Shown one piece after another: positions 4,537-61,328 of a stretch of 64,000 nucleotides of DNA. Both the position numbers and the translations under genes were made by a program. The stretch spans positions 434,001 to 498,000 of the forward strand of contig NZ_CP048437.1 in NCBI RefSeq assembly GCF_010509575.1. Direction: 5' to 3'. Each line of letters opens with the position of its first letter. Position 1 is the first letter of the stretch. The DNA is from Faecalibacterium duncaniae (GTDB lineage Bacteria > Bacillota > Clostridia > Oscillospirales > Ruminococcaceae). The notes under the pieces were generated by a model that was not told the origin of the DNA, did no database searches, and was given only the letters and a program-made list of their open reading frames with translations.

Positions 4537-5169
4537 GCAATTTTATATGCGATACAGTTTCTTTTGTCAGGAAATTTCGGAGCAATTTTAACCGTTCTTT
4601 GTTCATCGGTTGCAGGACTTCCGGTGCCATTTGCACCAGTACATTTACTCTTCATTAATCTTTTGACGGATAGTCTTCCGGCAATTGCGTTAGGATTAGA
4701 GCCGGATAGAAGTGAAGTGATGAGTGAAAAACCGAGATTGGCAGATGAGTCGATATTGACAAAAGATTTTCTTAGCAAAATCGGTCTGGAAGGTTTGGTA
4801 ATTGGAGCAATGACAATGATCAGTTTTTTGACAGGATACAACCAGAATGGTACATTGCTTGGAAGCACGTATGCTTTTGGAACTCTTTGTCTGGCACGTT
4901 TGTTTCATGGATATAATTGCAAATCAGATCATCCGGTCATTTTTACAAAAGGTCTCTTTCATAACAAGTGGCTTCAGGGAGCATTTGTGTTAGGTGCAGT
5001 ACTCATTACAACAGTACTGACGGTTCCTGGTTTCCATAACTTATTCAAAGTGGAAACGTTGAATCTGATGCAGCTTGGATGTGTATATTTATATGCTTTT
5101 GCAAGCCTTCTGATTATTCAATTACTTAAGTGTATACGTATGAAACTAAGAAAAAGAGGGGAAAGATAG
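4537..5169 (+). pseudogene. P-type cation ATPase, C-terminal remnant
   Basis: The reading frame begins immediately after the TAA of the phosphatidyltransferase and encodes AILYAIQFLLSGN..AILTVL. It continues with the C-terminal transmembrane block of calcium-type P-type ATPases, including HLLFINLLTDSLPAIALGLE. The phosphorylation motif DKTGT and the whole N-terminal two thirds (actuator, nucleotide-binding and phosphorylation domains) are missing. No good start codon with a ribosome site lies before it; TTG 4564 is only formal. The fragment therefore cannot pump ions and is probably the 3' end left by a deletion. It is in the same frame as the preceding pseudogene. Confidence 0.82.
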
Positions 5170-6386
5170 TGGATTTAAGTAGATGTTCTATGAAAAAAAT
5201 TCGAGAACTGATTGTGTTTACGGCATTTCTTGTAGTTGCTTTGTGGAAATTCGATGTGGTGATTGAAGTGCTGAAGTCAATATGGAAAATTGTGTTTCCT
5301 TTTGCGCTTGGTGGTGCAATTGCCTTTGTGATTAATGTACCAATGAGTTTCCTAGAAAAGAAAATGCTCGGAAAGATAAAAGAAAATAATAAAATAGGAA
5401 AAAAAGCTGCGAGACCGATAAGCCTGCTTCTTACAATTATATTGGTAGCAGGTGTCATTATATTGGTAATGTTTGGTGTGATTCCACAGCTTACACAGAC
5501 CATGGGAAATCTGATGACGAGTATTTCAGATTTTATTCCACAGATGCAAAACTGGATTCGAGAATTTTCACATGATAATCAGGATATTATGAAATTGGTA
5601 GATCAGCTGCAGTTTCAGCCTGATCAGGCAATTAAATGGGGAATAAGTCTTCTTGGAAACGGAGTCGGAAATATGATGAATACGACGATGTCAGCAGTAG
5701 GTTCCATTGCCAGTGGATTAGCGACCTTTTTTATTTCGTTTTCCTTTGCATGCTATATTCTTTTTCAGAAGGAAAAATTACATTTACAGGTAAGAAAAGT
5801 GATTTTCGCTTTTATTCCAAAACAAAAAGCAGATGCAATTCTTAACATATGTTCGCTGACATATCGGACATTTGCAAATTTTCTTGCAGGGCAGTGTCTG
5901 GAAGCAGTAATTCTCGGAATGATGTTTGTTATCACGCTAAGTATTTTAAAAATGCCATATGCACTTTTAATTGGAATTTTGATCGCGTTTACCGCATTGG
6001 TTCCTATCTTTGGAGCCTTTATTGGCTGTGCCGTGGGAAGTTTTCTGATCTTTATGGTAAATCCAAAACAGGCAGTTTTATTTATTATAGTTTTTCTGCT
6101 TTTGCAGCAGATAGAAGGTAATCTGATCTATCCTCATGTGGTTGGCGGATCAGTAGGACTTCCATCAATTTGGGTACTGGCGGCAGTTACAATCGGCGGA
6201 AATCTTATGGGAATTATAGGTATGCTGATTTTCATTCCACTTGTATCGGTATTTTATACTATATTCCGGGAGTTCGTATATCTGCGCCTAAAAAAACAAC
6301 ATATAAAACGAGTAACGAGAACGGATGTGGAAGAGTATGCGGAGGAGGAAATTGCGTCATCCTTTATTGTGCCGAATGAAAAATAA
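5169..6386 (+). CDS. AI-2E family transporter (TqsA/PerM-like)
   Basis: This roughly 405-residue membrane protein belongs to the AI-2E/TqsA/PerM family, whose members export autoinducer-2 or act as sodium/proton antiporters. It shows an N-terminal helix pair, a central soluble stretch (ISDFIPQMQNWI..), and a C-terminal bundle with the family pattern around QQIEGNLIYPHVVGGSVGL followed by PSIWVLAAVTIGG. I prefer the GTG at 5169, which follows AGAGGGGAAAG; ATG 5190 (MKKIREL) is an alternative. The start overlaps the stop of the ATPase remnant by one base. Substrate cannot be told from sequence. Confidence 0.85.
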   Translation: MDLSRCSMKKIRELIVFTAFLVVALWKFDVVIEVLKSIWKIVFPFALGGAIAFVINVPMSFLEKKMLGKIKENNKIGKKAARPISLLLTIILVAGVIILVMFGVIPQLTQTMGNLMTSISDFIPQMQNWIREFSHDNQDIMKLVDQLQFQPDQAIKWGISLLGNGVGNMMNTTMSAVGSIASGLATFFISFSFACYILFQKEKLHLQVRKVIFAFIPKQKADAILNICSLTYRTFANFLAGQCLEAVILGMMFVITLSILKMPYALLIGILIAFTALVPIFGAFIGCAVGSFLIFMVNPKQAVLFIIVFLLLQQIEGNLIYPHVVGGSVGLPSIWVLAAVTIGGNLMGIIGMLIFIPLVSVFYTIFREFVYLRLKKQHIKRVTRTDVEEYAEEEIASSFIVPNEK

Positions 6387-6466
6387 TGATGTGATACAAA
6401 TATAAATGAAGTGTAATGCCGATTATTAAGACGTTATAAAAATAGATTACGAAGGAAGAAGATATT

Positions 6467-7339
6467 ATGAAGAAAATAGGAATCATGACAGACAGCCACA
6501 GTGGAATTTTGAGTGAAGAAGCGCAGAGACTCGGAATTAAGGTACTACCGATGCCTTTTTATATCGGAGAGAAAGTGTATCGTGAAGGAGTAGATCTTTC
6601 CAGAGATGAATTTTATGATATGCTTCGAAAGGGCGTAGATGTATCTACATCTCAGCCGTCACCAACAGAAGTTATGGATATGTGGAAAGAGATGCTGAAA
6701 GAATATGAGGAGATTGTTTATATTCCTCTTAGCAGTGCTTTAAGCGGGTCCTGTATGACAGCAGAAGCCATGGCAAATGAAGATGAATTTGCCGGTAAGG
6801 TGTTTGTCGTAGATAACGGTCGTGTGGCAACCCCGATGCATCGTTCTGTTCTTGATGCAGTAGAAATGGCAAAAGAAGGATACAGTGTAGTCGAAATCAA
6901 GAAAATTCTTGAAGAAACCAGAGAAAAAATGACAATTTATATCGGGCTCAGCACACTGAAATATCTCAAAAAAGGAGGAAGAGTCAGCTCTGTGACAGCT
7001 TTGGCAGCAGATGTCCTGAGTATCAAACCTGTTATGCATTTCAGCACAGGAAAGCTTGATATCTACCAGAAATGCCGTGGTATGAAGAAATCACGTAAAG
7101 TTATGATCGATGCAATGAAGCATGAGCTGGAAACGAATTTCCGAGAAGAATATGCTGCTGGTAAAGTGTACCTGATGGCGGCGTCCAGCAGTACCGATGA
7201 AGTGACAGAAGAATGGGTAAACCAGATTAAAGAAAGTTTCCCGGGAATGGAAGTCATGTGTGATAAACTTTCCTTCGGTTTGTCCTGTCATATCGGTCCG
7301 GATGGACTGGGAATCGGATGCACCTGTAAGCCAGTGTAA
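6467..7339 (+). CDS. DegV family fatty-acid-binding protein
   Basis: This 290-residue protein matches the DegV family over its length. It opens with KIGIMTDSHSGI, has the TSQPSP motif near residue 62 and SSALSGS near residue 90, and continues GRVSSVTALAADVLSIKP. DegV proteins (FakB in staphylococci) hold a fatty acid for phosphorylation by a FakA kinase in uptake of exogenous fatty acids. No FakA partner is in view. A GAAGGAAGAAG ribosome site precedes the ATG. With the PLD and phosphatidyltransferase genes it adds to a lipid-related cargo set. Lipid specificity is unknown. Confidence 0.9.
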   Translation: MKKIGIMTDSHSGILSEEAQRLGIKVLPMPFYIGEKVYREGVDLSRDEFYDMLRKGVDVSTSQPSPTEVMDMWKEMLKEYEEIVYIPLSSALSGSCMTAEAMANEDEFAGKVFVVDNGRVATPMHRSVLDAVEMAKEGYSVVEIKKILEETREKMTIYIGLSTLKYLKKGGRVSSVTALAADVLSIKPVMHFSTGKLDIYQKCRGMKKSRKVMIDAMKHELETNFREEYAAGKVYLMAASSSTDEVTEEWVNQIKESFPGMEVMCDKLSFGLSCHIGPDGLGIGCTCKPV

Positions 7340-7490
7340 AAAACTGCTCCGGAGAAGATAAAATAAAAGATTAGGGTGTCAAAAGGTTTATAGCCTTTGA
7401 TATAAATTTGTACCTTGAAAACTTAACACGATATGTAAAAACATTGGATTCTTTGGTAAAATGTAGGTAGCATTTTATGAGGTGATCTAT

Positions 7491-7990
7491 ATGTCTTTTG
7501 TTAAAAATGATAATCAACAGCTTACTGTTTTAGACAGTACTTTTAATCTTACAGAACGCGAAAAACGAATGTTAGAAAAATCATGGGCAAAAATTTTGCA
7601 GACAAAGTTTTTCCTGCTATTGATGAAAATATTTTTTCTGTTCTTTACAGTAAAAAAGCATCCAGACCTAATACTCCGGTCAATGTGATTGTTGGGGCAC
7701 TGATTCTTAAAGAAGCTCTTAATGTTACTGACGATGAGATCGTTGAAGCTATGGCATTTGATATCCGCTATCAGTATGCACTGCACACAACCAGTTTTGA
7801 AGAGCAGCCAATTAGTGACAGAACCCTCAGCAGGTTTAGAGCAAGAGTTCTTTCTTACGAAACAGAGCATGATGTTGATCTTTTCATGAATGTGTTGTAA
7901 AAATGGCAAAAGAAATATCTGATTTTATGGATATCACTCCGGATTGGCTTACTTGTCAACTGTTTTTTGTAATATTTTTAAAGTTTTTAG
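7491..7990 (+). pseudogene. IS1182-family transposase remnant
   Basis: The frame starting at ATG 7491 (after GAGGTGAT) reads MSFVKNDNQQLTVLDSTF..EKRMLEKSWAK, then shifts near 7590 to NFADKVFPAIDENIFSVLY and VNVIVGALILKEALNVTDDEI (frame of 7583-7900). It shifts again near 7895 to KMAKEISDFMDITPDW. These are the conserved N-terminal segments of IS1182-type DDE transposases (DUF772 region). The catalytic DDE domain is missing. At least two frameshifts and a 3' truncation make it inactive. Terminal inverted repeats could not be defined, so the boundaries are approximate. Confidence 0.8.
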
Positions 7991-8045
7991 GTATAAAAAC
8001 AGTGGCTTTCTATGACAGAAAACCACTAAAATGATGCTTAACTGA

Positions 8046-8237
8046 ATGGCATTGCTTTATCACCACTTTGAAAATGGTTGTTTTATGGCGGATAATCAGA
8101 CAGTTTTGGATATAAGAGATGATCTGGGAGCAACCATGAATGAATGCAGGGAAGTGACCGAAAAGTACCGCACAGGACGGAGTGCATATTTACGGCTCGA
8201 ACAGTTGTTTATGCGATTGTTTGCAGGATTATTATAG
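8046..8237 (+). CDS. Small hypothetical protein, possibly a gene fragment
   Basis: A 63-residue frame between the transposase remnant and the bile salt hydrolase gene. It ends RSAYLRLEQLFMRLFAGLL, and its stop codon lies 12 bases before the hydrolase ribosome site. I do not recognise it. It lacks a clear ribosome site before its ATG, and the ending with an amphipathic helix suggests it may be the 3' end of a gene truncated by the insertion sequence. It could equally be non-coding. Confidence 0.3.
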   Translation: MALLYHHFENGCFMADNQTVLDIRDDLGATMNECREVTEKYRTGRSAYLRLEQLFMRLFAGLL

Positions 8238-8258
8238 CAGAAAGAAGAGGTGTTCGAT

Positions 8259-9248
8259 ATGTGTACAGCAGCAACTTACAAAACAAAAGATTTTTATATG
8301 GGCAGAACGCTTGATTATGAATTTTCCTATGGGGAACAGATCACGATAACGCCAAGAAATTACGAATTTGATTTCCGGTTTGCCGGGAAGATAAAAAGCC
8401 ATTATGCTTTGATCGGAATGGCATTTGTTGCAGAAGGTTATCCGCTTTATTATGATGCTGTTAATGAAAAAGGCCTTGGAATGGCAGGTCTTAATTTTGT
8501 CGGCAATGCGGCATATGAAGAGGCTTTGCCGGAAGATGAAACAGAAGTCAGCCAGGTGGCACAGTTCGAGTTCATCCCATGGACCCTTACACAGTGTGCT
8601 ACTGTAGCAGACGCGAGAGAGAAGCTGGCAGCAATGAGACTGACAGGTACAGCATTCAGTGAACAGCTGCCGACAGCACAGCTTCACTGGATCATTGCAG
8701 ACAAAGACTCCTGTATCGTTGTTGAGTCTATGAAAGATGGGCTGCATGTATATGATAATCCGGTAGGAGTGCTTACCAATAATCCACCATTCCCGAGTCA
8801 GATGTTTGCACTGAATAATTATGCCGGAGTATCCAGAAAACAGCCGGAGAGTACTTTTGCAGGAGTATTACAGCTTGATGCATATAGCAGAGGAATGGGT
8901 GGAATGGGAATACCTGGAGATCTTTCCAGCCAGTCAAGATTTGTGAAAGTTGCCTTTACAAAATTAAATTCGATCTCCGGTGAAGAAGAGGATGAGAGTG
9001 TAAGTCAGTTCTTCCATATCTTAGGATCCGTAGATCAGCAGCGTGGATGCTGTGAGGTGACAGAAGGCAAATATGAGATCACGATATACACGTCCTGTTG
9101 TAATACAGCAAAAGGTATTTACTATTATACGACTTATGATAATCATCAGATCACAGCGGTTGACATGCATGCGGAAAATCTGGATTCAGATCAGCTGATC
9201 TGTTATCCGCTTCTGTCCAAGGGCGAAGTCAGATGGCAGAATAAATAA
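8259..9248 (+). CDS. bsh: Choloylglycine hydrolase family protein (bile salt hydrolase)
   Basis: This 329-residue Ntn hydrolase cleaves the amide bond of conjugated bile acids or related linear amides. The start at ATG 8259 places the nucleophile Cys at position 2 (MCTAATYKTKDF), exposed by Met removal; a GTG nine bases earlier would bury it. Other family marks are GRTLDYE with the conserved Arg and Asp near residues 16 and 19, the LTNNPPF Asn near residue 170, and the SSQSRFVKVAF Arg near 225. AGAAGAGG precedes the start. Penicillin V acylases share the fold, but the length and motifs fit bile salt hydrolases of gut Firmicutes best. It sits on the island cargo, beside an IS remnant. Confidence 0.9.
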   Translation: MCTAATYKTKDFYMGRTLDYEFSYGEQITITPRNYEFDFRFAGKIKSHYALIGMAFVAEGYPLYYDAVNEKGLGMAGLNFVGNAAYEEALPEDETEVSQVAQFEFIPWTLTQCATVADAREKLAAMRLTGTAFSEQLPTAQLHWIIADKDSCIVVESMKDGLHVYDNPVGVLTNNPPFPSQMFALNNYAGVSRKQPESTFAGVLQLDAYSRGMGGMGIPGDLSSQSRFVKVAFTKLNSISGEEEDESVSQFFHILGSVDQQRGCCEVTEGKYEITIYTSCCNTAKGIYYYTTYDNHQITAVDMHAENLDSDQLICYPLLSKGEVRWQNK

Positions 9249-9369
9249 TACGAAAATGCACGGAGAAAGCATAACGCAGAACAACAGGAGGACAATATCG
9301 AGATTGTATGGAATGCAGATGTTAGGTTGATAATTGTGCAAGCACCGCCTGCACAATTTGTGCAACAAA

Positions 9370-9395
9370 AAAGAGGAGCCAGTCCAGACTCCTCA
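9370..9395 (-). terminator. Intrinsic terminator of the minus-strand ImmA gene
   Basis: On the minus strand GAGGAG pairs with CTCCTC around a short loop and is followed by TTTTTTG. It lies just past the stop of the ImmA-like gene. A second inverted repeat TTGTGCA/TGCACAA lies further out at about 9336-9358. Confidence 0.75.
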
Positions 9396-9403
9396 AAGGT
9401 ACG

Positions 9404-9913
9404 TTATTTCAAAAAGTTGCTCTTGTGTTCCAGCGCGTGCAGATTATAGCCAAGTGTAGCCAGGTGCGCTACCTTCAGCGCAACCAGATTGATGTCGGTG
9501 GACATCGCACTGGCGATCTGCTCGGCTGTGTATCCATACTCATAGATGTAGCGAAGAACTTCATCGCTGTCCATCAGGATCTCTGCCGCTACGATGTTGG
9601 CTTCATATTCCGGTTTGGATTTCATGTCGTAGAGCATGAACTCATGAATCGGGGTGGTTTTCGCCATATTCCGGTGAAGCTGGTCATGCCCTAATTCATG
9701 TGCGCACACGATGCGCAGCATATTTTCATCCAGACTGTTATTCAGGAAAATAAAGCGATTCCGCTTAATCACCCGGTACATTCCCTTCAGGGAACCAAAA
9801 TTTTCGCAAAGCATGACATTGATACCAAGCTGCCTTGCAATTTCAAAAGGGTCTCTGGAACCGCAGCGTTTTACCAGTTTCTCACCGACCAGTGAAAGCT
9901 GTTCCGCATTCAT
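9404..9913 (-). CDS. ImmA/IrrE family metallo-endopeptidase
   Basis: The protein is about 169 residues and carries the zinc protease motif HELGHDQLH (residues near 92-100) plus a downstream EYEANIVAAEILM segment that supplies the third metal ligand. ImmA proteases cleave or inactivate partner XRE repressors in mobile elements such as ICEBs1 after DNA damage. The partner here is very likely the XRE regulator just upstream on the same strand. A CCTCC-complement ribosome site (GGAGGTGGTATG on the minus strand) precedes the second Met, which I prefer over the first. The gene ends at a clear terminator. Confidence 0.9.
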   Translation of the reverse strand: MNAEQLSLVGEKLVKRCGSRDPFEIARQLGINVMLCENFGSLKGMYRVIKRNRFIFLNNSLDENMLRIVCAHELGHDQLHRNMAKTTPIHEFMLYDMKSKPEYEANIVAAEILMDSDEVLRYIYEYGYTAEQIASAMSTDINLVALKVAHLATLGYNLHALEHKSNFLK

Positions 9914-9961
9914 CATACCACCTCCAGTTTACAGTATAGCGAAAAGTGTGTACGATAAATA

Positions 9962-10378
9962 TCACTGATCGGATTTTTTACGCCTCGTTTTCGGGGCGTA
10001 TTTTTTATTGTTCTCTTTGGCAATCCAGTAGGCATCGGTCAGAGCTTTATAAGCTCCTTCGATGGCATCTTCGCTTAATTCGCCGCCAGCGAACATACCG
10101 GTCACTTCACTGACCAGTTCTTCAATATCTTTCGCTGCTTTTGCGCCGCCTTTTTCATGGGCTTCTACAACATAGGTGCCGCTGCTTCCCAGCAGATACT
10201 CAGTAGTAGTATTCAGCGCATCCGCGATCTTCTGGATCGTAACCATATTGGATGGTTTACGGCTGCCAAGCTCATAATTCTGAATTGTGCGGGCGGTTAC
10301 ACCGGCCTTCTCTGCAAGTTCTACCTGAGTTAAATTGGCTTCTGTTCTTTTTTCTTTCAACCTTTCTTTGAAGACCAT
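9962..10378 (-). CDS. XRE-family transcriptional regulator
   Basis: This 138-residue regulator begins MVFKERLKEKRTEANLTQVE and has a Cro/CI-type helix-turn-helix (QVELAEKAGVTARTIQNYELG) at about residues 17-40. A C-terminal tail of about 70 residues follows that is not a recognised domain and ends in a basic KTRRKKSDQ. The start at 10378 follows AAAGAGGTATTCCT; a longer frame to 10441 runs through the promoter and is not credible. It is transcribed with the ImmA protease gene (48 bases apart) from a promoter that faces the polymerase operon. Likely role: repressor of that operon, inactivated by ImmA. Confidence 0.9.
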   Translation of the reverse strand: MVFKERLKEKRTEANLTQVELAEKAGVTARTIQNYELGSRKPSNMVTIQKIADALNTTTEYLLGSSGTYVVEAHEKGGAKAAKDIEELVSEVTGMFAGGELSEDAIEGAYKALTDAYWIAKENNKKYAPKTRRKKSDQ

Positions 10379-10403
10379 AGGAATACCTCTTTCTTTTTTG
10401 ATT

Positions 10404-10560
10404 ACGAACACGAACACTTTTTCATAAAAATCTATTGACACGAAAAACTGTGCTTGCTATAATGACGATGAAAACACGAAATATAATTCGTGTAATTATA
10501 GTATCACAAGAAATGCTGTGTGTCAATGCGTTCGTGAAAAGTTGTTCGTGCTTTCGCGAA
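10404..10560. promoter_or_regulatory. Face-to-face promoters over a shared operator with CACGAA/TTCGTG repeats
   Basis: On the plus strand there is TTGACA (10435-10440), a 17-base spacer and TATAAT (10458-10463), a perfect consensus promoter pointing at the polymerase gene. On the minus strand there is TTGACA (complement of 10521-10526), a 17-base spacer and TACTAT (complement of 10498-10503), pointing at the XRE gene. Between them a perfect inverted repeat ACACGAA-6-TTCGTGT (10474-10493) covers both expected start sites. Further CACGAA/TTCGTG half-sites occur at about 10439, 10531 and 10545, CGAACACGAACAC at 10405, and TTCGCGAA at 10553. This is the layout of an XRE-controlled genetic switch. 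Confidence 0.8.
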
Positions 10561-10579
10561 CGGAGAGGAGGAATACGAG

Positions 10580-11815
10580 ATGCAAAGAGTGATCCTTCAC
10601 TGTGATATGAATAATTTCTATGCCTCTGTCGAGTGTATGCTGAATCCGGAACTGAAGAACAAGCCGGTGGCAGTGTGTGGTTCTGTGGAGGAACGGCATG
10701 GTATTGTACTTGCGAAGAACTATGCAGCAAAGGCGTTTGGCGTTTCCACGGGAGAGGCAATCTGGCAAGCAAAGCAGAAGTGCCAGGATCTTGTGATCGT
10801 GGAGCCGCACTATGAGCAATATATGAAGTTTTCAAAGCTGGCTCGTGAAATATACGGTCGCTATACCGATCAGATCGAGCCGTATGGGATGGACGAATGC
10901 TGGCTGGATGTGACCGGAAGCGGCTGTATGGGAACCGGATTTGAAATCGCAGATGAGATTCGTAGAACGGTTAAGTTTGAACTGGGACTTACGATTTCCG
11001 CAGGAGTGAGCTTCAATAAGATTTTTGCCAAGCTTGGGTCGGATATGAAAAAGCCGGATGCGATTACCTGCATCGAAGCAGATTCATTCCGGGAGAAGAT
11101 TTGGTGTCATCCTGCCTCTGACTTGCTTGGAGTCGGCAGAGCGACCGAGAAGGTTCTATCCAGTTATGGGATTCATACCATTGGAGAACTCGCTGCAACA
11201 TCGGATGATTTCCTGAAATGCCGCCTTGGGAAGAATGGACTGGTGATTAAGAAATATGCCAATGGACTGGATGATTCACCGGTTATGCGTTCCGATTATG
11301 TCTCCCCAGTAAAGAGCATTGGGCACGGGATAACGACCATGCAGGATTTGGAGAATAACGCCGAAGTCTGGTGTGTCATGCTGGAACTGGTGCAGGAGAT
11401 CGGAACCAAGCTGCGAGCACATAAAAAGAAAGCTGGCGGAATAGCGATTTCCATCCGCAACAACGAGCTTTACACGAAAGAGTGGCAGTGCCGGATTGGT
11501 ATTCCGACACAAAGCCCTACCTATCTGGCGAAAACTGCATTTGCTCTGTTTGCAAAGAACTATCAGTGGGAGCATCCGATTCGTTCAGTGACGGTTCGGG
11601 CAATCAACCTGTTTGAAGAGGATTGTCCGATACAATACGACCTATTCACTGATGTGAAATCACTGGATCGCCAGGAACGCTTGGACGCAGCGATTGAGCA
11701 GATTCGATTCCGATTCGGGAAAGATGCGATTAAAAATGGGGTACTTTTTCAGAAAAGCAAGATGCCGACAGAGCGAAAAGTGGATTTGGTTATGCCGACA
11801 GGAATGATTGGTTAA
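10580..11815 (+). CDS. Y-family DNA polymerase (DinB/UmuC-like)
   Basis: This 411-residue translesion polymerase opens with VILHCDMNNFYASVE, where the first catalytic Asp and the steric-gate FY lie, and has the second acidic site in YGMDECWLDVT near residue 105. The thumb and little-finger domains follow. The C-terminal part holds QYDLF near residue 357, a typical clamp-binding motif. It bypasses DNA lesions at the cost of fidelity. GGAGAGGAGG precedes ATG 10580. It is the first gene of a plus-strand operon from the consensus promoter at 10435-10463 and is likely held off by the XRE repressor, an arrangement that would give damage induction without LexA. Confidence 0.93.
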   Translation: MQRVILHCDMNNFYASVECMLNPELKNKPVAVCGSVEERHGIVLAKNYAAKAFGVSTGEAIWQAKQKCQDLVIVEPHYEQYMKFSKLAREIYGRYTDQIEPYGMDECWLDVTGSGCMGTGFEIADEIRRTVKFELGLTISAGVSFNKIFAKLGSDMKKPDAITCIEADSFREKIWCHPASDLLGVGRATEKVLSSYGIHTIGELAATSDDFLKCRLGKNGLVIKKYANGLDDSPVMRSDYVSPVKSIGHGITTMQDLENNAEVWCVMLELVQEIGTKLRAHKKKAGGIAISIRNNELYTKEWQCRIGIPTQSPTYLAKTAFALFAKNYQWEHPIRSVTVRAINLFEEDCPIQYDLFTDVKSLDRQERLDAAIEQIRFRFGKDAIKNGVLFQKSKMPTERKVDLVMPTGMIG

Positions 11816-11896
11816 TACAGCACCGGCAGAATCTGGTGAGTTCTTTGCTAAAAGAAGTCAACACATTCGCCGGTTTACAGAGAAGGAGCGTAGAAT

Positions 11897-12157
11897 ATGT
11901 CGGAACAGAAATGTAGAAAAGTATATGTACCTGTGAATTTAGATGTGGATGCAGAGGGAAATATCCGTCCGCGTCTGATTCGGTGGATTGACGGACGGGT
12001 GTATGAGATCGACCGATTGAAGCATAAGTGTCGGGCTGCTTCCACGAAGGTAGGAGGCTGCGGAATCCGCTATACGGTCATGATCGGTGGGCATGAGAGC
12101 TTCCTGTACAACGAAGATGAAAAATGGTTCGTTGAAGCAAAGGAGCAGTGCCTATGA
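11897..12157 (+). CDS. Small conserved hypothetical protein of the polymerase operon
   Basis: An 86-residue protein starting MSEQKCRKVYVPVNLDVD and containing RPRLIRWIDGRVYEIDRL, then a Gly-rich IRYTVMIGG. The strongly patterned beta-strand look suggests a small barrel. It follows the Y-family polymerase by 81 bases behind AGAAGGAGCG, and its TGA overlaps the start of the next gene (ATGA). I do not recognise a named family; proteins with this RWxDGRxYxID pattern commonly sit beside polymerase genes in Firmicutes mobile elements, which is from memory. An accessory role for the polymerase is inference only. Confidence 0.75.
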   Translation: MSEQKCRKVYVPVNLDVDAEGNIRPRLIRWIDGRVYEIDRLKHKCRAASTKVGGCGIRYTVMIGGHESFLYNEDEKWFVEAKEQCL

Positions 12158-12885
12158 TCCTTTCGCAGAAAAACATAGAGGAAATCGCTGTTGCAGTGAT
12201 AAGAGATTTTCAAAAGTCCTTTTTCGGCAGCGAAGCAGATGATCCGACGAGATTCGCGCTTCCGACACCCATTGACCAGTTTGCATCCGATTATCTGAAC
12301 CTGAAGGTGTCATTTCAAAAGTTGTCCTCGGACGGAAGCATCTATGGTCTGACCGCGTATGTGGATACAGAATATCAGATAGAGGTTGATGGAAGTCAGA
12401 GGAGCATCTTCCTGAAAACCAATGATGTGGTTCTGGATAAGAGCTTCATTGAACCGGAGAATATTCGGAAACTCTGCGGAAAACGCAGGTTTACGCTGGC
12501 ACATGAGTGCGCCCACCAGATACTGTTTCAGCTGGATGCCGATGACCGAAAGATAGCCTGCCATAAGAGAACGGAAGTGCGAGAAAATGGCTCCCGCGTT
12601 CTGAGAACGCAGGAGGATTGGAACGAATGGCAGGCCAATGCGCTGGGAGCTGCTATTCTGATGCCTCAGTCAGAGGTGGATCGGGCGATGTGGTTCATTA
12701 ACAGCAGAAAGCCTCTGACTTGTTATGGATGGCATTTTTATGACAAAGACCAGGTGAAAATAGATACTTTCTGTAGTGTCTTTGGCGTTTCGAGATCGGC
12801 AGCTGCTATCCGCTTGGAACAACTGGGCTATTTGAACCGGAAAAAGGATTATGAATATCGTGATCCATTGGAGGTGTGGCCATGA
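12154..12885 (+). CDS. ImmA/IrrE family metallopeptidase (second copy)
   Basis: This 243-residue protein has the zinc motif FTLAHECAHQILF near residues 110-122 and a downstream WNEWQANALGAAILMP that carries the third ligand. It is longer than the minus-strand ImmA at 9404 and has an extra N-terminal part and a C-terminal wing (FGVSRSAAAIRLEQLGYL). I take ATG 12154, which overlaps the previous stop, rather than GTG 12148. The next gene also starts in an ATGA overlap, so these genes are translationally coupled. Having a second protease inside the operon controlled by the switch could give positive feedback on repressor loss. Confidence 0.88.
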   Translation: MILSQKNIEEIAVAVIRDFQKSFFGSEADDPTRFALPTPIDQFASDYLNLKVSFQKLSSDGSIYGLTAYVDTEYQIEVDGSQRSIFLKTNDVVLDKSFIEPENIRKLCGKRRFTLAHECAHQILFQLDADDRKIACHKRTEVRENGSRVLRTQEDWNEWQANALGAAILMPQSEVDRAMWFINSRKPLTCYGWHFYDKDQVKIDTFCSVFGVSRSAAAIRLEQLGYLNRKKDYEYRDPLEVWP

Positions 12886-13142
12886 GCAGGAATATCAGAG
12901 TATCGGAACCATCTGCGGAAATGCAGATTAAAATCATCCGGGCAAAGGATGCAATCGCTTCGCAAAAGCCCAGGACTGTCAGGTGCCCTTATTGCCGACA
13001 CAATTCAATCATCGTCTTTGAGGACACCAGAGGACATGTGCAGACCAAATGCAAGGCCTGCGGACGCGAGACCGTTTTCAATGTTTTGGAGATGAGAAGA
13101 TTACGGAGATTGCAGCTCTACTATTCGTCTTTGAATGGCTGA
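12882..13142 (+). CDS. Small zinc-ribbon protein
   Basis: An 86-residue protein with two CxxC pairs, CPYCRH and CKACGRE (about residues 37-64), separated by 21 residues that read as two beta strands, i.e. a zinc ribbon. The N-terminus is predicted helical, and the C-terminus is a basic helix RRLRRLQLYYSS. It overlaps the ImmA gene by four bases (ATGA) and is the last gene of the polymerase operon. Nucleic-acid binding is the usual role of such ribbons, but no specific function can be given. Confidence 0.78.
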   Translation: MSRNIRVSEPSAEMQIKIIRAKDAIASQKPRTVRCPYCRHNSIIVFEDTRGHVQTKCKACGRETVFNVLEMRRLRRLQLYYSSLNG

Positions 13143-13193
13143 GATGACAATAAATAACCCTATTAACACAATTTTATAAGTCATAGCTGTGCT

Positions 13194-13312
13194 GTGGAGC
13201 CGCTGACAGGCGAAGTCTTCCGAATGCCGCATGAAACAGAATTATGGGATAGCCCATGTTCTGTTTTATCGGCACAGGATTTTTTCTTCACCGTCATGCG
13301 GCTCCTTTTTTG
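13194..13312 (+). promoter_or_regulatory. Nested inverted repeats, possible attenuator or terminator
   Basis: An inner hairpin pairs AAACAGAA (13234-13241) with TTCTGTTT (13259-13266), with ATGGG/CCCAT inside it. An outer stem pairs GCCGCATGA (13226-13234) with TCATGCGGC (13294-13302), followed by TCCTTTTTT. An upstream GGAGCCGC (about 13196-13203) is also complementary to GCGGCTCC (13298-13305), so two outer folds compete. It lies between the polymerase operon and the next XRE gene and could end one transcript and control the other. Confidence 0.55.
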
Positions 13313-13360
13313 ACCTTCCGTCGGTCCGGTTCTGTACCGGCTGTGCGGAAGGAGAAACGT

Positions 13361-13651
13361 ATGTATTTTGACGCAAAAGAGTTTGGTAAGAGACTTCACG
13401 ATGTTCGCACTTCCCGTGGCATTACGCAGGAGGAGCTGGCGGTTCGCCTGGGACTGGCAAGCAAGCAGCATGTCAGCCGTATGGAGAACGGTGAGCGCAG
13501 TTGCTCAATTGATTTGCTGATTGAACTGTCCTGCATCCTCCATGTCAGCACGGATTATCTTCTGATGGGCAGCGAGCCAAGCAAAGAGAAAGTTAAAAAT
13601 GATCTTTTGAGCATTATTTCGGAGCTGTCTACGATTGCGAAGAAAATCTAA
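13361..13651 (+). CDS. XRE-family transcriptional regulator
   Basis: This 96-residue regulator begins MYFDAKEFGKRLHDVRTSRG and is almost entirely one helix-turn-helix domain (ITQEELAVRLGLASKQHVSRMENGER), ending with a short helix. I chose ATG 13361, which follows GCGGAAGGAGAAACGT; the longer frame from 13256 runs through the hairpin region. It stands alone on the plus strand, downstream of a structured leader, and its 3' end overlaps by about 23 bases the convergent pseudogene. Target unknown; regulation of the island is plausible. Confidence 0.85.
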   Translation: MYFDAKEFGKRLHDVRTSRGITQEELAVRLGLASKQHVSRMENGERSCSIDLLIELSCILHVSTDYLLMGSEPSKEKVKNDLLSIISELSTIAKKI

Positions 13652-14125
13652 AAAGCATTAGGCGCAATATAACTGCTGACGGCGTAGAATCATGGTGGCT
13701 AACTTGGTGGATACCTTGATGGGTGTCATCCTCTAAGTTATCATGGGTTGTATCATGGGTTGCGTCATAGGACTTATCATTGGCTGTACCCATGATAGAG
13801 TAAGCATGAGTGATTTGAGCACCCTCACTGCCGTGGGCAATAAGGTGGATACAAAGATTCAAAACTGTGTGTGGGATGTCCGGCGATTTATCTTGCTCAC
13901 TAACTTGGTCATTGACTAAGTTTTTCTGACTAAGTTGGCAATTTACATTTTTCAAGATGACTCTGAAATCTGTTGCCGTTGAGAAAATTTTCGGATTATA
14001 TGCCGCTGTATATCCAGGCGGCTTTTCGGTTTCCCTGACGATTTTGCGTAGGCCGCTTCCATGACACTCCATGTATTTCATGCGGTGGAACGGGTCAGCA
14101 ATCACAGGGCTTGCCATATTGAACG
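13629..14125 (-). pseudogene. C-terminal remnant of an AlbA_2/Schlafen-type ATP-binding protein
   Basis: The minus-strand frame reads SPVIADPFHRMKYMECHGSG, then ETEKPPGYTAAYNP and TATDFRVILKNVN. This is the conserved C-terminal segment of the large family of putative DNA-binding ATPases with an N-terminal AlbA_2 domain and a GHKL-like ATPase. The N-terminal two thirds are absent, and the tail runs into THDTTHDNLEDDTHQG repeats typical of the disordered end of these proteins. The start is formal only. It is a decayed passenger, convergent with the XRE gene. Confidence 0.7.
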
Positions 14126-14175
14126 GATACTTTTTAGTGTCAAAAACAATTTGGAAAATAAAAACGGAAAGTACG

Positions 14176-14204
14176 TTGTTATTTTATGAATTGCGGCGTA
14201 TAAT
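14176..14204 (+). promoter_or_regulatory. Promoter for the first ABC-type ATPase gene
   Basis: TTGTTA (14176-14181), a 17-base spacer and TATAAT (14199-14204) lie 53 bases before the start codon. The match to the vegetative consensus is strong. Confidence 0.7.
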
Positions 14205-14256
14205 AAGATTATAAGAAAATAAAAACGAAAAAACTGTTTTTAGAGGAAGACTACCT

Positions 14257-15408
14257 ATGAAAATACTCCGCATCACCGCACAAGGACTCCAATTATTCAA
14301 AAAAGACTTGGATATTTGCTTTTATACGCAGCAACGTGTTTGCGAAGAGGACAAAGATAATCTTTACCGTTTGATGGATAACTACTATCTCCACTCTGCC
14401 TGTGCTTTCATTGGAATTAACGCATCTGGCAAGACCTCGGTATTAAAGGTCATTAGCTTGGCCTTAAATATTGTGAAAAATGAGCCCATCAATCATGTGG
14501 AGGCAAAAAGCATTCTTGGCGGAACGAAGAAGGCTACAATCCGCACATATTTTTATGATAAGCGTAGCTACGTCTGCTGCTTGGAAACTGTAATTGCGGC
14601 AAAGAAGTCGAAAACAGGGGAATATGTGTATTCGATTCTGTCTGAAAGCCTTTGGGAAAAACCGATTGCAACCGTTAAGTCGAAAAAGTATCTGACAGAT
14701 TTTACAGGAATGAAGCCTGTAGAGCAGCGTAATAACGATGAAGCATACCTTTCTGATGATGTTAGCTTTATCATTGCGCATAATAAAAAAGCGAATGATA
14801 CAGTGGAAATATTTAGCCTGCTTTCCTATACGAATGTGAATGTGCTTCCATTTACCGAAGATATTCCATTGGAGGTAATTGCATTTCTCGATCCGACCAT
14901 TGAGAAATTGTGTTTTGAACAGACAGAGGGAAAAACATTTATCCACTTGAAGTTTAAGGATGAAAAAGAGATTATCCTGAATAATGCGGCAGACCTTGAG
15001 CAGTATCTGTCCTCTGGTACGATTAAGGGTATTATTACATTCTCGATGGTAAAGGAAGTTCTTCATTCAGGTGGTTATCTTCTGGTAGATGAAATAGAGA
15101 ATCATTTCAACAAGGAAATTGTAACGACCTTAGTGCGCTTCTTTATGGACAGCCGACTGAACAAAAATGGCGGAACGCTTATTTTCACTACGCATTATCC
15201 GGAACTGCTGGACGAATATGACCGAAATGACGGAATTTGCATCGTTAGAAACCGTAATGGCATCACAGCAGAAAATTTGAGCTATATATTGAAACGTAAT
15301 GATATTAAAAAGAGTGATGCTTACCAGAGCGGCTTCCTTGAGGGAACAACGCCAGCATATGAAGCGTATATGCGCTTGAAGAAAAGCCTGGCTGCTTCAA
15401 TCAATTAA
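14257..15408 (+). CDS. ABC/OLD-type ATPase, AAA family (putative defence)
   Basis: This 383-residue protein is an SMC/ABC-type ATPase. It has a Walker A GINASGKTS (residues 53-61), an ABC-signature-like LSSGTIKG near residue 250, a Walker B YLLVDEIEN near residue 274 and an H-loop FTTHYPELLD near residue 311. It resembles the ATPase half of OLD, RloA and AriA-type proteins and has no TOPRIM domain of its own. It is followed by a strong ribosome site and a seven-codon stub (15421-15444), as if a partner gene had been lost. Proteins of this group often act in phage defence with a separate effector. Role inferred. Confidence 0.8.
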   Translation: MKILRITAQGLQLFKKDLDICFYTQQRVCEEDKDNLYRLMDNYYLHSACAFIGINASGKTSVLKVISLALNIVKNEPINHVEAKSILGGTKKATIRTYFYDKRSYVCCLETVIAAKKSKTGEYVYSILSESLWEKPIATVKSKKYLTDFTGMKPVEQRNNDEAYLSDDVSFIIAHNKKANDTVEIFSLLSYTNVNVLPFTEDIPLEVIAFLDPTIEKLCFEQTEGKTFIHLKFKDEKEIILNNAADLEQYLSSGTIKGIITFSMVKEVLHSGGYLLVDEIENHFNKEIVTTLVRFFMDSRLNKNGGTLIFTTHYPELLDEYDRNDGICIVRNRNGITAENLSYILKRNDIKKSDAYQSGFLEGTTPAYEAYMRLKKSLAASIN

Positions 15409-15498
15409 GGAGGTAGCAGAATGGAGTTAGAACTAACAGTATGAGGAACAATATACTGCATGAATGTAAATATTGCTTGGATATGTGGACTATTGTCC

Positions 15499-15527
15499 TT
15501 GAAATGCTCCTTTAAATATGATATCAT
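15499..15527 (+). promoter_or_regulatory. Promoter for the ATPase-TOPRIM pair
   Basis: TTGAAA (15499-15504), a 17-base spacer and TATCAT (15522-15527) lie 41 bases before the ATG at 15568. This gives the second ATPase and its partner their own transcription start. Confidence 0.65.
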
Positions 15528-15567
15528 TAGTTCGTACAAGGCGAAATAATGAAATGGAGGCTCTGAC

Positions 15568-16671
15568 ATGATCGTTTTAGACCTTGAGTTAAAGGAAATC
15601 TATGGATTTAATGATTTTCATATCAATTTCAGTTATCCCAAAAAGATTGTCAATTCGATTATCGATCAGGAACATCTGAAAGGAAGAGAGCGATTTCGCT
15701 ATAAGAAGGCTGTAATTCTTATGGGTGCAAATGCTACCGGAAAGACCAGCCTTGGAAAGGCTTTGCTTCGTATTTTTGGATATATGACTGATGGAAATCC
15801 AACACCGCTGTATGAGATGGTTGCAGGCGATAAAGGATACTTCAGTATTGATTTTGTGAATGGTGATTATCGCCTGCAGCGGTTGTCAGCTCAGATTGAT
15901 GCATCCAGTCAGGAGATTGACATTCAGTATCAGACCGCAGACATTGATACGATGGATTCGTATGAAAAATGTGTAAAGAAGCTGAAAGATCAAACGATAG
16001 AGGCAACCAGAACCGCTACAGCACTTAAGAAGCTGGTAGGTGCTGTTCGATATCGTTTTGCATATCCTGAAATAGAAAAATCTTTGAAACTTACAGGTGC
16101 AAATAAAAGCATTTTGTTAAAGACACTGCGTGCTGTTATTGGAACGCTTGATCCTACATTGCAGGACGTTAGTTTATCAAAAGATTTGAAGGATACCTTT
16201 ATTATTCGGCGCGGTGGAACGGAAATCATCATTCAGGAAGGTAAACTGCTGAATCGGGAGATACTGTCCAGTGGTACAGCAGAAGGAATAGATGTCGCAA
16301 TGTTCCTTGCTGCAATGGCGACAAAAGAAAGCAGTTTCTATTATTGTGATGAACATTTTTCTTATATTCAGAGCGATATTGAAAAACGGATTTTCGGTAT
16401 TATGCTGGATCGTATCGGAGACGATGAACAATTGATTTTTACAACGCATAATACAGATATGCTGGATTTGAACCTGCCGAAACATAGTTATGTGTTTTTG
16501 CGTAAGCATCTGGAGGAAGATGTATATCAGGTTTCTGCTGTTTCTGCATCGGATGTACTGAAACGAAATACAGACTCTTTACGCTGTGCGGTCGAGAATG
16601 ATGTGTTTGCCTCGCTTCCGCAGGATTCCCTTTTGGACGAGTTGGAAATGGGGTGGGAAGATGAACAATAA
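15568..16671 (+). CDS. AAA/ABC-type ATPase of a two-gene ATPase-TOPRIM module
   Basis: This 367-residue ATPase has a Walker A MGANATGKTS (residues 52-61), a signature-like ILSSGTAEGID near residue 231, a degenerate Walker B FYYCDEHFSYI near residue 257 and an H-loop FTTHNTDMLD near residue 291. The central insert is about 120 residues and helical. It is closest in look to RloA/AriA-type AAA_15/AAA_21 ATPases. Its stop overlaps the start of the TOPRIM-like gene by 11 bases, so the two are translated together. Such pairs sense phage products through the ATPase and release or activate a nuclease. The specific trigger is unknown. Confidence 0.82.
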   Translation: MIVLDLELKEIYGFNDFHINFSYPKKIVNSIIDQEHLKGRERFRYKKAVILMGANATGKTSLGKALLRIFGYMTDGNPTPLYEMVAGDKGYFSIDFVNGDYRLQRLSAQIDASSQEIDIQYQTADIDTMDSYEKCVKKLKDQTIEATRTATALKKLVGAVRYRFAYPEIEKSLKLTGANKSILLKTLRAVIGTLDPTLQDVSLSKDLKDTFIIRRGGTEIIIQEGKLLNREILSSGTAEGIDVAMFLAAMATKESSFYYCDEHFSYIQSDIEKRIFGIMLDRIGDDEQLIFTTHNTDMLDLNLPKHSYVFLRKHLEEDVYQVSAVSASDVLKRNTDSLRCAVENDVFASLPQDSLLDELEMGWEDEQ

Positions 16672-17170
16672 GTGCATCTATTATGTAGAAGGCCCCTGTG
16701 AACAACAACTGATTGCAGCCTTAAAAGAAGCACCGGAAAGATTGATCCCGGGGAAGATAAAGGTCTTCAATGTGGTGCAGAATTTGATTCCTAAGTCACA
16801 GATGTTGTCTATTCAGGCGGGAACGACTGTCGTTTTGGTATTTGATACTGATGTGCCACAGACATCAAACCTTAAAAAGAACTTGGAACTTCTCACCCGG
16901 TATTGCGGAAAGCTGAAAATCATTTTTCTTCCACAAGTTCTGAATTTGGAGGATGAATTGGTTCGGTGTACAGACGTGCGAACTGCGATGGAACTGACCA
17001 AAAGTGGAAGCGTTAAAAATTTCAAGACGGACTTTTGTAAGATGAAAACAAAAGATTGTCGTTCTATGCTTGAGCGTCATAAGCTGGATTATGCACGATT
17101 GTGGATGACAAAAACGCCTGAAGCATTTAGTTTTGTGGAGAATAATAGTTCTCAAATTAAAACATTATAA
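16661..17170 (+). CDS. Small TOPRIM-like protein, partner of the ATPase
   Basis: This 169-residue protein starts MNNKCIYYVEGPCEQQLI, where the Glu near residue 10 fits the first acidic residue of a TOPRIM fold, and has VVLVFDTDVPQ near residues 54-64, matching the DxD of the second strand. NLEDELVR near residue 100 could supply the last acidic site. This is the arrangement of RloB, OLD-nuclease and AriB TOPRIM domains, but the protein is shorter than AriB (DUF4435). ATG 16661 follows GGGGTGGGAAG inside the ATPase gene. A terminator follows directly. Effector nuclease of a defence pair is the best inference. Confidence 0.75.
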   Translation: MNNKCIYYVEGPCEQQLIAALKEAPERLIPGKIKVFNVVQNLIPKSQMLSIQAGTTVVLVFDTDVPQTSNLKKNLELLTRYCGKLKIIFLPQVLNLEDELVRCTDVRTAMELTKSGSVKNFKTDFCKMKTKDCRSMLERHKLDYARLWMTKTPEAFSFVENNSSQIKTL

Positions 17171-17177
17171 TCTTTGA

Positions 17178-17212
17178 TGCCTCGTTGGGAAACCAACGGG
17201 GTATTTTTTTGC
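17178..17212 (+). terminator. Intrinsic terminator after the ATPase-TOPRIM pair
   Basis: CCTCGTTGG and CCAACGGGG form a GC-rich stem with a GAAA-like loop, followed by TATTTTTTTG. Confidence 0.8.
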
Positions 17213-17731
17213 CTCAATCTGGCTGTATAGAACACTGAAAAAGTCAAAACGAACCGTAGGTAGTCCTGCAAGGACAACCAAAGTGCGCCTACGAGGCCAA
17301 CGCGAAATCGGAGGATTCTTGTTAAACTTACTTTGTAAGGACGAAAGTCCGGATGTTCCTTGAAAACTGAATACTCATTCTTCAGGTACATTCCTGTTTG
17401 GTCGAGCCTTCGACTGCACGCCATGAAGCCCATCGGGGCGATAGCGGTTTCGCAGAAGCAAATGCCGGATTGCAACCGGCGGCGGTGTTAAAACCAGACA
17501 GGGACAATGATACTTCCGTAATTCGCGGTCCGGCCATAAGGAAGGCGGGATGGTTAAATTCCAATGGAGCAGTGAAGCACACTGCCGCCTGTGAGAAATC
17601 CTACATCTCTGGGGTGATAAGAAAAAGTACAGAGAAACCATATTTTCAGAAAGCACTGCTGGGTGCTGTATCAGCATGATACCTGGCAGGCTTTATCCAT
17701 ATCAGTGTATGGAGATTGGAGACAACAGCAA
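17213..17731 (+). other. Non-coding stretch with many hairpins before the MazF gene
   Basis: No frame here gives a recognisable protein; the 93-residue frame at 17398-17679 has no family look and spans the hairpins. Local stems include GTCGA/TCGAC, GCCGG/CCGGC, GCG/CGC and GCCC/GGGC packed between about 17398 and 17490, plus AGGACGAAAGTCC near 17340. The density of stems suggests a structured RNA or a long leader of the toxin gene. I see no known RNA class. Confidence 0.45.
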
Positions 17732-18154
17732 ATGAAAGAAAACTGGGTTTATCGGCGAGGTGATTTATATCTCGCCAATCTCGGTGTTCCGGTCGGATCA
17801 AAGCAGGGCGGTGTTCGTCCTGTTGTGGTTCTTCAGAATGATGTCGGCAATTATTATGCGCCGACGATCACGATTGCTCCGCTGACATCGAAAATTGAGA
17901 AGAAGCGAAAGCAGCCAACACATTTCTTTCTCCGTAAAGCAAAGGGACTGGCAAAACCGTCTATGGTATTGGCAGAACAGCTCGACACCTGCGACAAGAT
18001 ATGCGTGATTCGCTATCTTGGGCGGGTAAGTAAGGGGCAGATGCGTGGGATTGACGAAGCTGTAAGGATTCAGCTTGGTTATTATATTCCGGAACAGGCA
18101 GAGAAAAAAAGACAGGGCAAATGCCGAAAGGATGGCGAAGAAGGCGATGGATAA
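17732..18154 (+). CDS. MazF/PemK-family endoribonuclease toxin
   Basis: This 140-residue protein has the MazF fold marks: YRRGDLYLANLG at the start, the GGVRPVVVLQND segment, TIAPLTS and the RYLGRVSKGQM end. MazF toxins cut mRNA at short sequence sites and stall growth. The preferred start is ATG 17732 (MKENWVYRRG); the longer frame from 17663 has no ribosome site. No separate antitoxin is seen upstream. The gene downstream overlaps it and is excisionase-like. In Lachnospiraceae conjugative elements a lone MazF-like gene often stands next to xis and int, so it may serve element maintenance (recalled, not checked). Confidence 0.88.
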   Translation: MKENWVYRRGDLYLANLGVPVGSKQGGVRPVVVLQNDVGNYYAPTITIAPLTSKIEKKRKQPTHFFLRKAKGLAKPSMVLAEQLDTCDKICVIRYLGRVSKGQMRGIDEAVRIQLGYYIPEQAEKKRQGKCRKDGEEGDG

Positions 18155-57934: not shown

Positions 57935-58179
57935 GGAAAAAGCCCTCCTATCGGATCGGCTTGCCCGGCGCGGAAGTGCGCCCGGCAGGTCGGTTGCAGT
58001 TTTGTAATGAACTGCTTTGATTGTACTGGTTCTTGCCCGGTTTGTAAAGGGGCAGTTCGTGGCAAAATCTGCCCGATGACAGCTTTGGGAAAGTTTTTTG
58101 TGCAGAAAGCTTGCTTTTTGCCCGGGAGTATGGTAATATTATTCGGCAGTATCGTGTTATACTGCGCTTTATAATGTAT

Positions 58180-58255
58180 GCGCTCGTAGCTCAGCCGGTA
58201 GAGCATCTGACTTTTAATCAGAGGGCCAGGGATTCGAGTTCCCTCGAGCGCACCA
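58180..58255 (+). tRNA. tRNA-Lys (anticodon TTT)
   Basis: The 76-base gene has acceptor arms GCGCTCG and CGAGCGC, a D-arm with AGCTCAG..GGTAGAGC, an anticodon stem TCTGA/TCAGA with loop CTTTTAA, a T-arm CAGGGATTCGAGTTCCCTC and an encoded CCA. Its 3' end is the likely attachment site of the element that follows. Confidence 0.97.
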
Positions 58256-58256
58256 A

Positions 58257-58308
58257 AGAAAAACCCACGATTAACCGTTGAAAACGCGGTGCAAATCGTG
58301 GGTTTTTC
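58257..58308 (+). terminator. Terminator after tRNA-Lys
   Basis: AAAAACCCACGAT pairs with ATCGTGGGTTTTT across about 23 bases. Confidence 0.75.
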
Positions 58309-58339
58309 TGTTTTACAAGGGGTGCGAAACAGCCAGAAT

Positions 58340-58401
58340 GTGCCTTATTTGTGCCTTACTCTTGAAAAAATGCCTTGCCGTGTGCCTTACGCTGTGCCTT
58401 G
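58340..58401 (+). repeat. Five GTGCCTTA-type direct repeats, candidate integrase arm sites
   Basis: GTGCCTTA occurs at 58340, 58351 and 58382, ATGCCTTG at 58370 and GTGCCTTG at 58394. Spacings are 11, 19, 12 and 12 bases, near one or two helical turns. They lie about 85 bases from the tRNA 3' end. Confidence 0.65.
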
Positions 58402-58409
58402 CTTCTGAT

Positions 58410-59333: not shown

Positions 59334-59567
59334 TCATCCAATTTGTCGGATGCCGTGGGCGGTCTGGCTTTGCTCTGCCGGGGCCGGGTCGCCCTGCTCA
59401 AAGTACCGGGCTAGGCTGTCCAGATTCACAAGCCAGCCGCGCCCGGCATTCACATACCGGACTTTGCCGGTCCTGCAAAGCCGCCGGATATAGTGGGGTG
59501 ACAGTCCGTAAATTTCAGCGGCCTGCTTTACGGTTCCCATGTTCGGGTAGCGGATCGTATTGTTCAA
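59334..59567 (-). CDS. Excisionase-like helix-turn-helix protein (copy 1)
   Basis: This 77-residue protein contains KQAAEIYGLSPHYIRRLCRT and RYVNAGRGWLVNLDSLARYF, the HTH_17/excisionase pattern, and ends with a short acidic tail. It is clearly homologous at DNA and protein level to the gene at 63234-63479. The start is uncertain: TTG 59567 sits well behind AAAGAGGTG, while GTG 59576 overlaps that site. It stands alone within the coding-poor stretch. Role: excision control or regulation of the element. Confidence 0.7.
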   Translation of the reverse strand: MNNTIRYPNMGTVKQAAEIYGLSPHYIRRLCRTGKVRYVNAGRGWLVNLDSLARYFEQGDPAPAEQSQTAHGIRQIG

Positions 59568-59576
59568 GCAATGCAC

Positions 59577-61153: not shown

Positions 61154-61328
61154 AGGATTCCTTTCTGGATGTTGTGAAAACCTATGCTTTGCCCTCTCTC
61201 CCCGATTGTGGTATACTATTGGGGGAAGATAGACACGCAAGTTATTTTCCTTTGTTCCTACGGATGGGACTTTCAAAGTAGCATGAGAGAAGCGGGGCAG
61301 CTTGTACCATGCGAAACGAAAGCCCTTT

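Follow-up and report, generated by a model that had tools for sequence, protein, structure and literature searches.

A 64,000-nucleotide stretch of the Faecalibacterium duncaniae genome (the window; bases 434001-498000 of a 3.10 Mb single-contig genome) holds a six-gene module, at positions 9404-13142, that probably acts as a toggle. An XRE repressor and the M78-family metalloprotease ImmA1 are encoded leftward, and a Y-family polymerase, an 86-residue protein, a second M78 protease (ImmA2), and a CxxC protein are encoded rightward. After damage, or in response to single-stranded DNA, ImmA1 would remove XRE and thereby derepress the polymerase, with ImmA2 as cargo. We consider this reading likely, based on predicted converging promoters in every non-redundant related region compared, operator-like sites that vary together with the recognition helix of XRE, and related loci in which a LexA-like repressor precedes the cargo. 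The genes, predicted promoters, and operator-like sites of the module are as follows.

9404-9916, minus strand: ImmA1, M78 (ImmA/IrrE) metalloprotease, 170 residues, HELGH (PF06114, 51.8 bits)
9962-10378, minus strand: XRE repressor (HTH_3; PF01381, 53.7 bits), ATG at 10378
10404-10415, plus strand: extra operator-like half-sites (ACGAACACGAAC) in the XRE leader
10435-10440 and 10458-10463, plus strand: right promoter (polymerase operon), TTGACA and TATAAT separated by 17 bp
10438-10457: O1, operator-like site in the right promoter spacer, with three mismatches to O2
10474-10493: O2, palindrome ACACGAA-6-TTCGTGT, between the promoters
10521-10526 and 10498-10503, minus strand: left promoter (XRE-ImmA1 operon), -35 TTGACA and -10 TACTAT separated by 17 bp
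within 10498-10526: O3, weak operator-like site in the left promoter spacer
10530-10561: further half-sites and a one-mismatch palindrome in the polymerase leader
10580-11815, plus strand: Y-family (UmuC/DinB type) polymerase, 411 residues (PF00817, 149.1 bits)
11897-12157, plus strand: small protein, 86 residues, predicted all-beta
12154-12885, plus strand: ImmA2, IrrE-like metalloprotease, 243 residues, HECAH (PF06114, 29.9 bits)
12882-13142, plus strand: CxxC-x18-CxxC zinc-ribbon-like protein, 86 residues, two CxxC pairs (sub-cut-off matches only)

Facing promoters in the module and its relatives

The sequence-only reading of this DNA described two opposing near-consensus promoters, and both are borne out, with 34 bases separating their -10 boxes. 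Placing the transcription start sites ~7 nt past each -10 box puts them at 10470 for the right promoter and 10491 for the left. The palindrome O2 had been described as covering both start sites; with these estimated positions it does cover the left start, but begins only downstream of the right start, by ~4 nt.

Genome contigs were scanned with the polymerase, and the best 80 of 134 related stretches were examined together with three earlier loci, giving 83 in total. This search for the same operon in other genomes, which had been suggested as a check, found an XRE gene divergent from the polymerase gene at 57/83 loci. With the window, these gave 58 regions, which were reduced to 32 non-redundant regions by shared 8-mers. 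In all 32, window included, the best facing promoter pair was near-consensus and scored above every one of 100 dinucleotide shuffles, so that the XRE-ImmA pair is predicted to face the polymerase operon across converging promoters in each of them, as had been claimed for the window. The facing -10 boxes are 25-60 bp apart, and no more than 40 bp apart in 31/32 regions. The control consisted of 32 other non-redundant divergent gene pairs (of 38) from the same loci, taken with a slightly shorter margin; a facing-promoter score of at least 26 was reached by 2/32 control pairs and by 32/32 module regions.

This predicted geometry, with the two start regions close together, resembles that of phages P2 and 186, in which the lytic and lysogenic promoters face each other. 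In P2-like phages, the facing promoters are described as 40-60 bp apart, a measure that may differ from the 25-40 bp between -10 boxes in 31/32 module regions, and in phage 186 pR is described as inhibiting pL by interference, but not the reverse (PMC7498355). The module differs from P2 and 186 in that its repressor is presumably removed by a protease.

Component counts were restricted to non-redundant loci with room for the gene in question, and some of the calls for the small protein, ImmA2, and the CxxC protein are weak matches. By these counts, ImmA1 accompanies XRE at 29/29 loci, the small protein is present at 20/26, ImmA2 at 13/26, and the CxxC protein at 14/26. The constancy of ImmA1 and the variability of the other parts indicate that the switch consists of XRE-ImmA1, with the remaining parts as cargo. 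The XRE gene is adjacent to and co-oriented with the M78 gene, as in ImmR/ImmA-type systems. The sequence-only reading had placed both ImmA proteases in one feedback design, which we set aside as the core of the system because ImmA2 was not found at 13/26 loci, a count in which a strongly diverged ImmA2 could have escaped detection, and because it sits behind a LexA-like repressor elsewhere. On the same grounds, ImmA2 is best read as optional cargo and not as a required antirepressor.

A polymerase-free version, in which ImmA1-XRE faces the small protein, ImmA2, and the CxxC protein, occurs in L035, L036-L039, and a Vescimonas plasmid. A facing promoter pair was found in 7/7 polymerase-free regions tested (0/200 shuffles each), although five of the seven are near-copies, leaving about three that are distinct. 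The copy in L035 (4085-6615; G000:C1:2960584-2963114) is a second, polymerase-free switch in the same genome as the window, and its ImmA2 is 56% identical.

Operator-like sites and the XRE recognition helix

CACGAA/TTCGTG half-sites start at positions 10409, 10439, 10475, 10487, 10531, and 10545. This density of six half-sites per 200 bp compares with a shuffle mean of 0.26 and maximum of 3, with 0/2000 shuffles reaching six. The second palindrome, at 10544-10561, carries one mismatch in the window and is perfect in six loci (L059-L064). In the 3.1 Mb genome, this intergenic region has the sole exact CACGAA-N6-TTCGTG, and a wide regulon for XRE was rejected on that basis; with one mismatch allowed, two further places in the genome match, compared with seven matches for the reversed control pattern. 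When the 20-mer operator was searched with up to three mismatches, three of the four matches in the window fell in the promoter region and the fourth at 56182, in the chromosome part, with at least four such matches arising in 6/100 shuffles of the window. No other operator-like site was found in the element part of the window at up to three mismatches, and a genome search allowing one mismatch gave none close to the element.

To compare regions, each was split into three zones, comprising the right promoter spacer, the middle, and the left promoter spacer. Similarity among the zones reaches p<=0.05 in 27/32 regions (100 single-base shuffles). Half-sites could be paired by eye with classes of recognition helix: NTISNYE..TYPQN with CACAAAC, RRVICSYEND with GAAGTT, RT[IV]TNYE with ACGCAA, and RTIQNYE[LM]GSRKP with CACGAA. 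Over all pairs of the 32 regions, operators are more alike where the helices are more identical (r=0.45, 0/2000 permutations), and their relation to polymerase identity is slight (r=0.07); controlling for the polymerase and the remainder of XRE leaves a partial correlation with the helix of 0.37 (0/2000 permutations). The pairing of repressor and operator proposed from the window is thus supported by comparison, and this co-variation is the best evidence that XRE would bind the operator-like sites, with half-sites in both spacers and between the promoters as its probable targets.

LexA-like controllers and the cargo

The SOS box GAACNNNNGTTC is absent from the promoter region of the window, and LexA control of its operon was rejected on this basis; the box is present in 1/32 non-redundant regions (L114). 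The host genome yielded no PF01726 match and no lexA equivalog above cut-off, and its three XRE-S24 proteins (L009, L010, L011) fall below the lexA equivalog cut-off. These results agree with the description of the switch as 'LexA-free' as far as the window is concerned, but absence of LexA from the host is not proven because PF01726 matched only 2/9 LexA-like proteins at related loci. PF01726 is matched in 100/148 sampled genomes of the family and is not matched in G081, the other genome of the same genus listed. The polymerase-free core also occurs in G140, a genome with a PF01726 match.

At four related loci (L096, L100, L104, L118) a LexA-like S24 repressor lies upstream of the polymerase, and at five (L043, L044, L045, L052, and L093 at 840-2720) such a repressor lies upstream of an ImmA2-type protease. 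All nine of these proteins match PF00717 and 8/9 pass the lexA equivalog cut-off, the exception being that of L093. In L104, GAACAAATGTTC is found upstream. L093, a contig from a metagenome-assembled genome (MAG), holds both versions a few kb apart, one controlled by a LexA-like repressor (840-2720) and the other by XRE-ImmA1 (4836-8798). A quick tree built from 57 polymerases requires two changes of controller to account for the four LexA-type rows; it has no root, its branches are long, and its forks are weak, so it gives no direction for these changes. DNA damage is the signal to which LexA-type repressors respond. Their position before related cargo supports, but does not prove, a damage role for XRE-ImmA1, and likewise suggests, short of proof, that the polymerase cassette is under DNA-damage control; XRE-ImmA1 would then fill for the cassette the role that a LexA-type repressor has in related loci.

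The Pfam matches of ImmA1, XRE, and ImmA2 all exceed their cut-offs. The polymerase matches IMS and IMS_C above the Pfam cut-offs, and scores 339.1 bits against NF002848 (PRK03103 subfamily), under the cut-off of 381, so it is not assigned to that subfamily. In an alignment of 83 rows, D9 is found in 81/83 (with two gaps) and D105 and E106 each in 83/83. We take these residues to be the conserved carboxylates and QYDLF to be clamp-motif-like, and with its IMS domain the protein is by sequence a Y-family polymerase. The 86-residue small protein gave no family match above cut-off in Pfam and family-profile scans; its model is all-beta (predicted local distance difference test, pLDDT, 86.4), without a clear fold match, and its family is present in 45/291 sampled genomes of the class. 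In ImmA2, the HExxH motif and downstream glutamate (H117, E118, H121, E158) are invariant in 28/28 aligned sequences, and no Pfam domain besides M78 was found in its 243 residues. Its model (pLDDT 86.5) has IrrE as its sole match at E<=0.001 (Foldseek 3dti/3dte; 219 alignment columns), and its profile matches four PDB sequences, including CapP and IrrE. The M78 domain of ImmA1 spans residues 28-137, and the domain scan of XRE used a stretch three bases longer than 9962-10378. The ATGA couplings described for the right operon are present between the small protein and ImmA2 (12154) and between ImmA2 and the CxxC protein (12882), but not between the polymerase and the small protein, which are 81 bases apart.

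A mainly phage-borne polymerase module is disfavored, as one scan of viral contigs with the polymerase gave two relatives. Phage carriage may nevertheless occur, because ImmA2 relatives are found in 40 phage records and the polymerase matches a PHROG family. A fusion protein of a Streptococcus suis phage (L057:714-2600) has an ImmA2-type protease followed by an XRE domain at the C-terminus.

The proposed switch and its mobile element

In the proposed mechanism, the left transcript would produce XRE and ImmA1, and the right transcript the polymerase, the small beta protein, ImmA2, and the zinc-ribbon-like protein. In the resting state, XRE would repress the right promoter. Damage or incoming single-stranded DNA would activate ImmA1, which, by analogy with IrrE/DdrO and CapP/CapH, would cleave XRE and allow the right promoter to fire. 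The facing layout would sharpen switching and could make it bistable: starts at 10470 and 10491 imply overlapping RNA polymerase footprints, so that an enzyme bound at one promoter would exclude binding at the other. Single-stranded DNA is described as stimulating repressor cleavage both by PprI/IrrE and by CapP, with the GAF-like domain of PprI needed for this activation (PMC10904395).

Several observations weigh against this model. The diverging promoter layout also scores somewhat higher in the module than in the control pairs (median 22.5 vs 19.8), and the promoter weights in the scoring scripts are approximations. There is no divergent XRE gene at 26/83 loci: several of these start at or near a contig end (e.g. 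L074, L076, L106), four have a LexA-like gene, L129 gave no polymerase open reading frame, and the remainder have other controllers or none that is clear. In L080 and L094, ImmA1 is more than 1 kb away from XRE. The palindrome in the middle zone alone reaches p<=0.05 in just 5/32 regions, by which perfect palindromes were rejected as a general rule, and O3 of the window is weak. The window operators score equally high against those of L098 and L114, where helix identity is 0.44 and 0.31, and the permutation test removes relatedness incompletely. Finally, ImmA1 has no PDB sequence match, and a C-terminal GAF-like domain as in IrrE is found in neither ImmA1 nor ImmA2; the 170 residues of ImmA1 leave no room for one, so its signal may differ from that of PprI.

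The module lies on a mobile element, as the sequence-only reading proposed. G+C content is 0.37-0.48 per 2 kb step across the first 20 kb of the window and ~0.6 past ~21 kb, and two tandem tyrosine integrases end at 21016. Upstream, outside the window, are genes for a VirD4-type coupling protein, a MobA/MobL relaxase, PrgI, a topoisomerase, and ParB, and these conjugation genes identify the region as an element of the integrative and conjugative (ICE) type. Positions 4581-17812 are 99.99% identical to a contig of Roseburia inulinivorans (strain DSM 16841). Eight loci, from Roseburia, Blautia, Brotaphodocola, Pseudoflavonifractor, a Lachnospiraceae MAG, Faecalibacterium, Enterocloster, and Gemmiger, share 95.5-100% identity across the aligned DNA of the module, which for two loci covers it only in part. 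The polymerase frame of L067 and of L068 is split in two. Also on the element, outside the window, is a bacteriophage exclusion (BREX) set, brxA, brxB, brxC, pglX, pglZ, and brxL (G000:C1:417562-431178; L143:3562-17178). Two adjacent AAA ATPase genes at 14257-16671 have PADLOC matches to AbiLi/AriA models, and a PemK/MazF-type toxin gene lies at 17732-18154. The chromosome part shows strong AT skew (~-0.25) at 58001-60000 and 61001-63000.

Given this setting, XRE-ImmA1 might mainly govern excision and transfer of the element, as an ICEBs1-type immunity switch, while the polymerase rides along. The repressor-protease pair is the same as ImmR/ImmA and ICE genes surround the module; both ICEBs1 and TnSmu1 have, like the module, an XRE protein and adjacent M78 protease on an ICE with a counter-transcribed target operon, and ImmR/ImmA-like control of ICE activation is described for TnSmu1 (PMC10233336). 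However, the operator searches place the perfect site in this intergenic region alone (genome searched to one mismatch), the sole other window match within three mismatches is that in the chromosome part, and family-profile scans of the six module proteins gave no match to an excisionase or transfer family. The target in ICEBs1 is xis and in the module the polymerase cassette, and PimmR and Pxis are described as divergent (PMC11318856) where the module promoters face each other. We regard an immunity switch as unlikely. A zygotic switch, triggered by single-strand entry into a repressor-free cell and with the polymerase aiding establishment rather than damage tolerance, seems to us distinctly improbable: the strong right promoter would be free to fire without repressor, and the element has moved recently between families, but a damage signal is suggested by the LexA-like controllers found in front of this cargo. 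A toxin-antitoxin or defense-linked module of the CapH/CapP type, in which sensing of DNA stress arms defense genes and the polymerase is incidental, is very unlikely; the resemblance of ImmA2 to CapP and IrrE, the BREX set and AbiLi-like ATPases on the same element, and the existence of the core without the polymerase are set against a perfect operator unique to this region and the finding of no known defense family in the controlled operon by family scans (PADLOC was not applied to the operon).

Precedents for control of a Y-family polymerase that is element-borne or independent of LexA are HdiR-UmuC of streptococci and rumAB of SXT/R391, which use an autocleaving S24-type repressor, unlike the XRE and M78 protease of the module. 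No publication on an XRE-ImmA/Y-family polymerase cassette was found in the literature searched, of which coverage was partial. Among protease-repressor systems, Deinococcus IrrE(PprI)/DdrO is similar in that an M78 protease and an XRE repressor control DNA repair genes after damage, but differs in its multi-gene regulon and in the GAF-like domain of its protease; the Deinococcus DnaE2 translesion cassette is described as being under LexA/RecA (PMC8072749). CapH/CapP is likewise a repressor/protease pair activated by single-stranded DNA (as cited in PMC10904395), but controls genes of the cyclic oligonucleotide-based antiphage signaling system (CBASS). None of the six module proteins matched a CBASS family in family scans, and ten further genes of the element had, among the matches shown, BREX and AbiLi-like ones. 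The Clostridium clostridioforme prophages phi5 and phi12 carry ImmR/ImmA-like genes with predicted convergent promoters (PMC11318856); these are prophage lysogeny modules, and the main text of that article does not contain 'UmuC' or 'polymerase IV'.

Beyond the toggle itself, we tentatively propose, as a possibility short of an even chance, that the module is a portable LexA-independent SOS unit of Clostridia. XRE-ImmA1 with facing promoters and LexA-type control would have been swapped at least two times before one mutagenic-polymerase cassette, with the operator code tracking the helix and the promoter clash kept. Single-stranded DNA may itself be the signal on ICEs, in which case mutagenic synthesis would be triggered by damage and by conjugation alike. 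The response would also have new effectors in the small beta protein and the ImmA2/CxxC pair.

The occurrence of two kinds of controller before one cargo makes LexA-type and XRE-ImmA control directly comparable, and the many naturally varied promoters and operators allow testing of what a face-to-face layout adds to a repressor switch. Gut Clostridia exchange ICEs across families. If the element rather than the host SOS response governs mutagenic synthesis, the mutation rate under stress would be a transferable trait.

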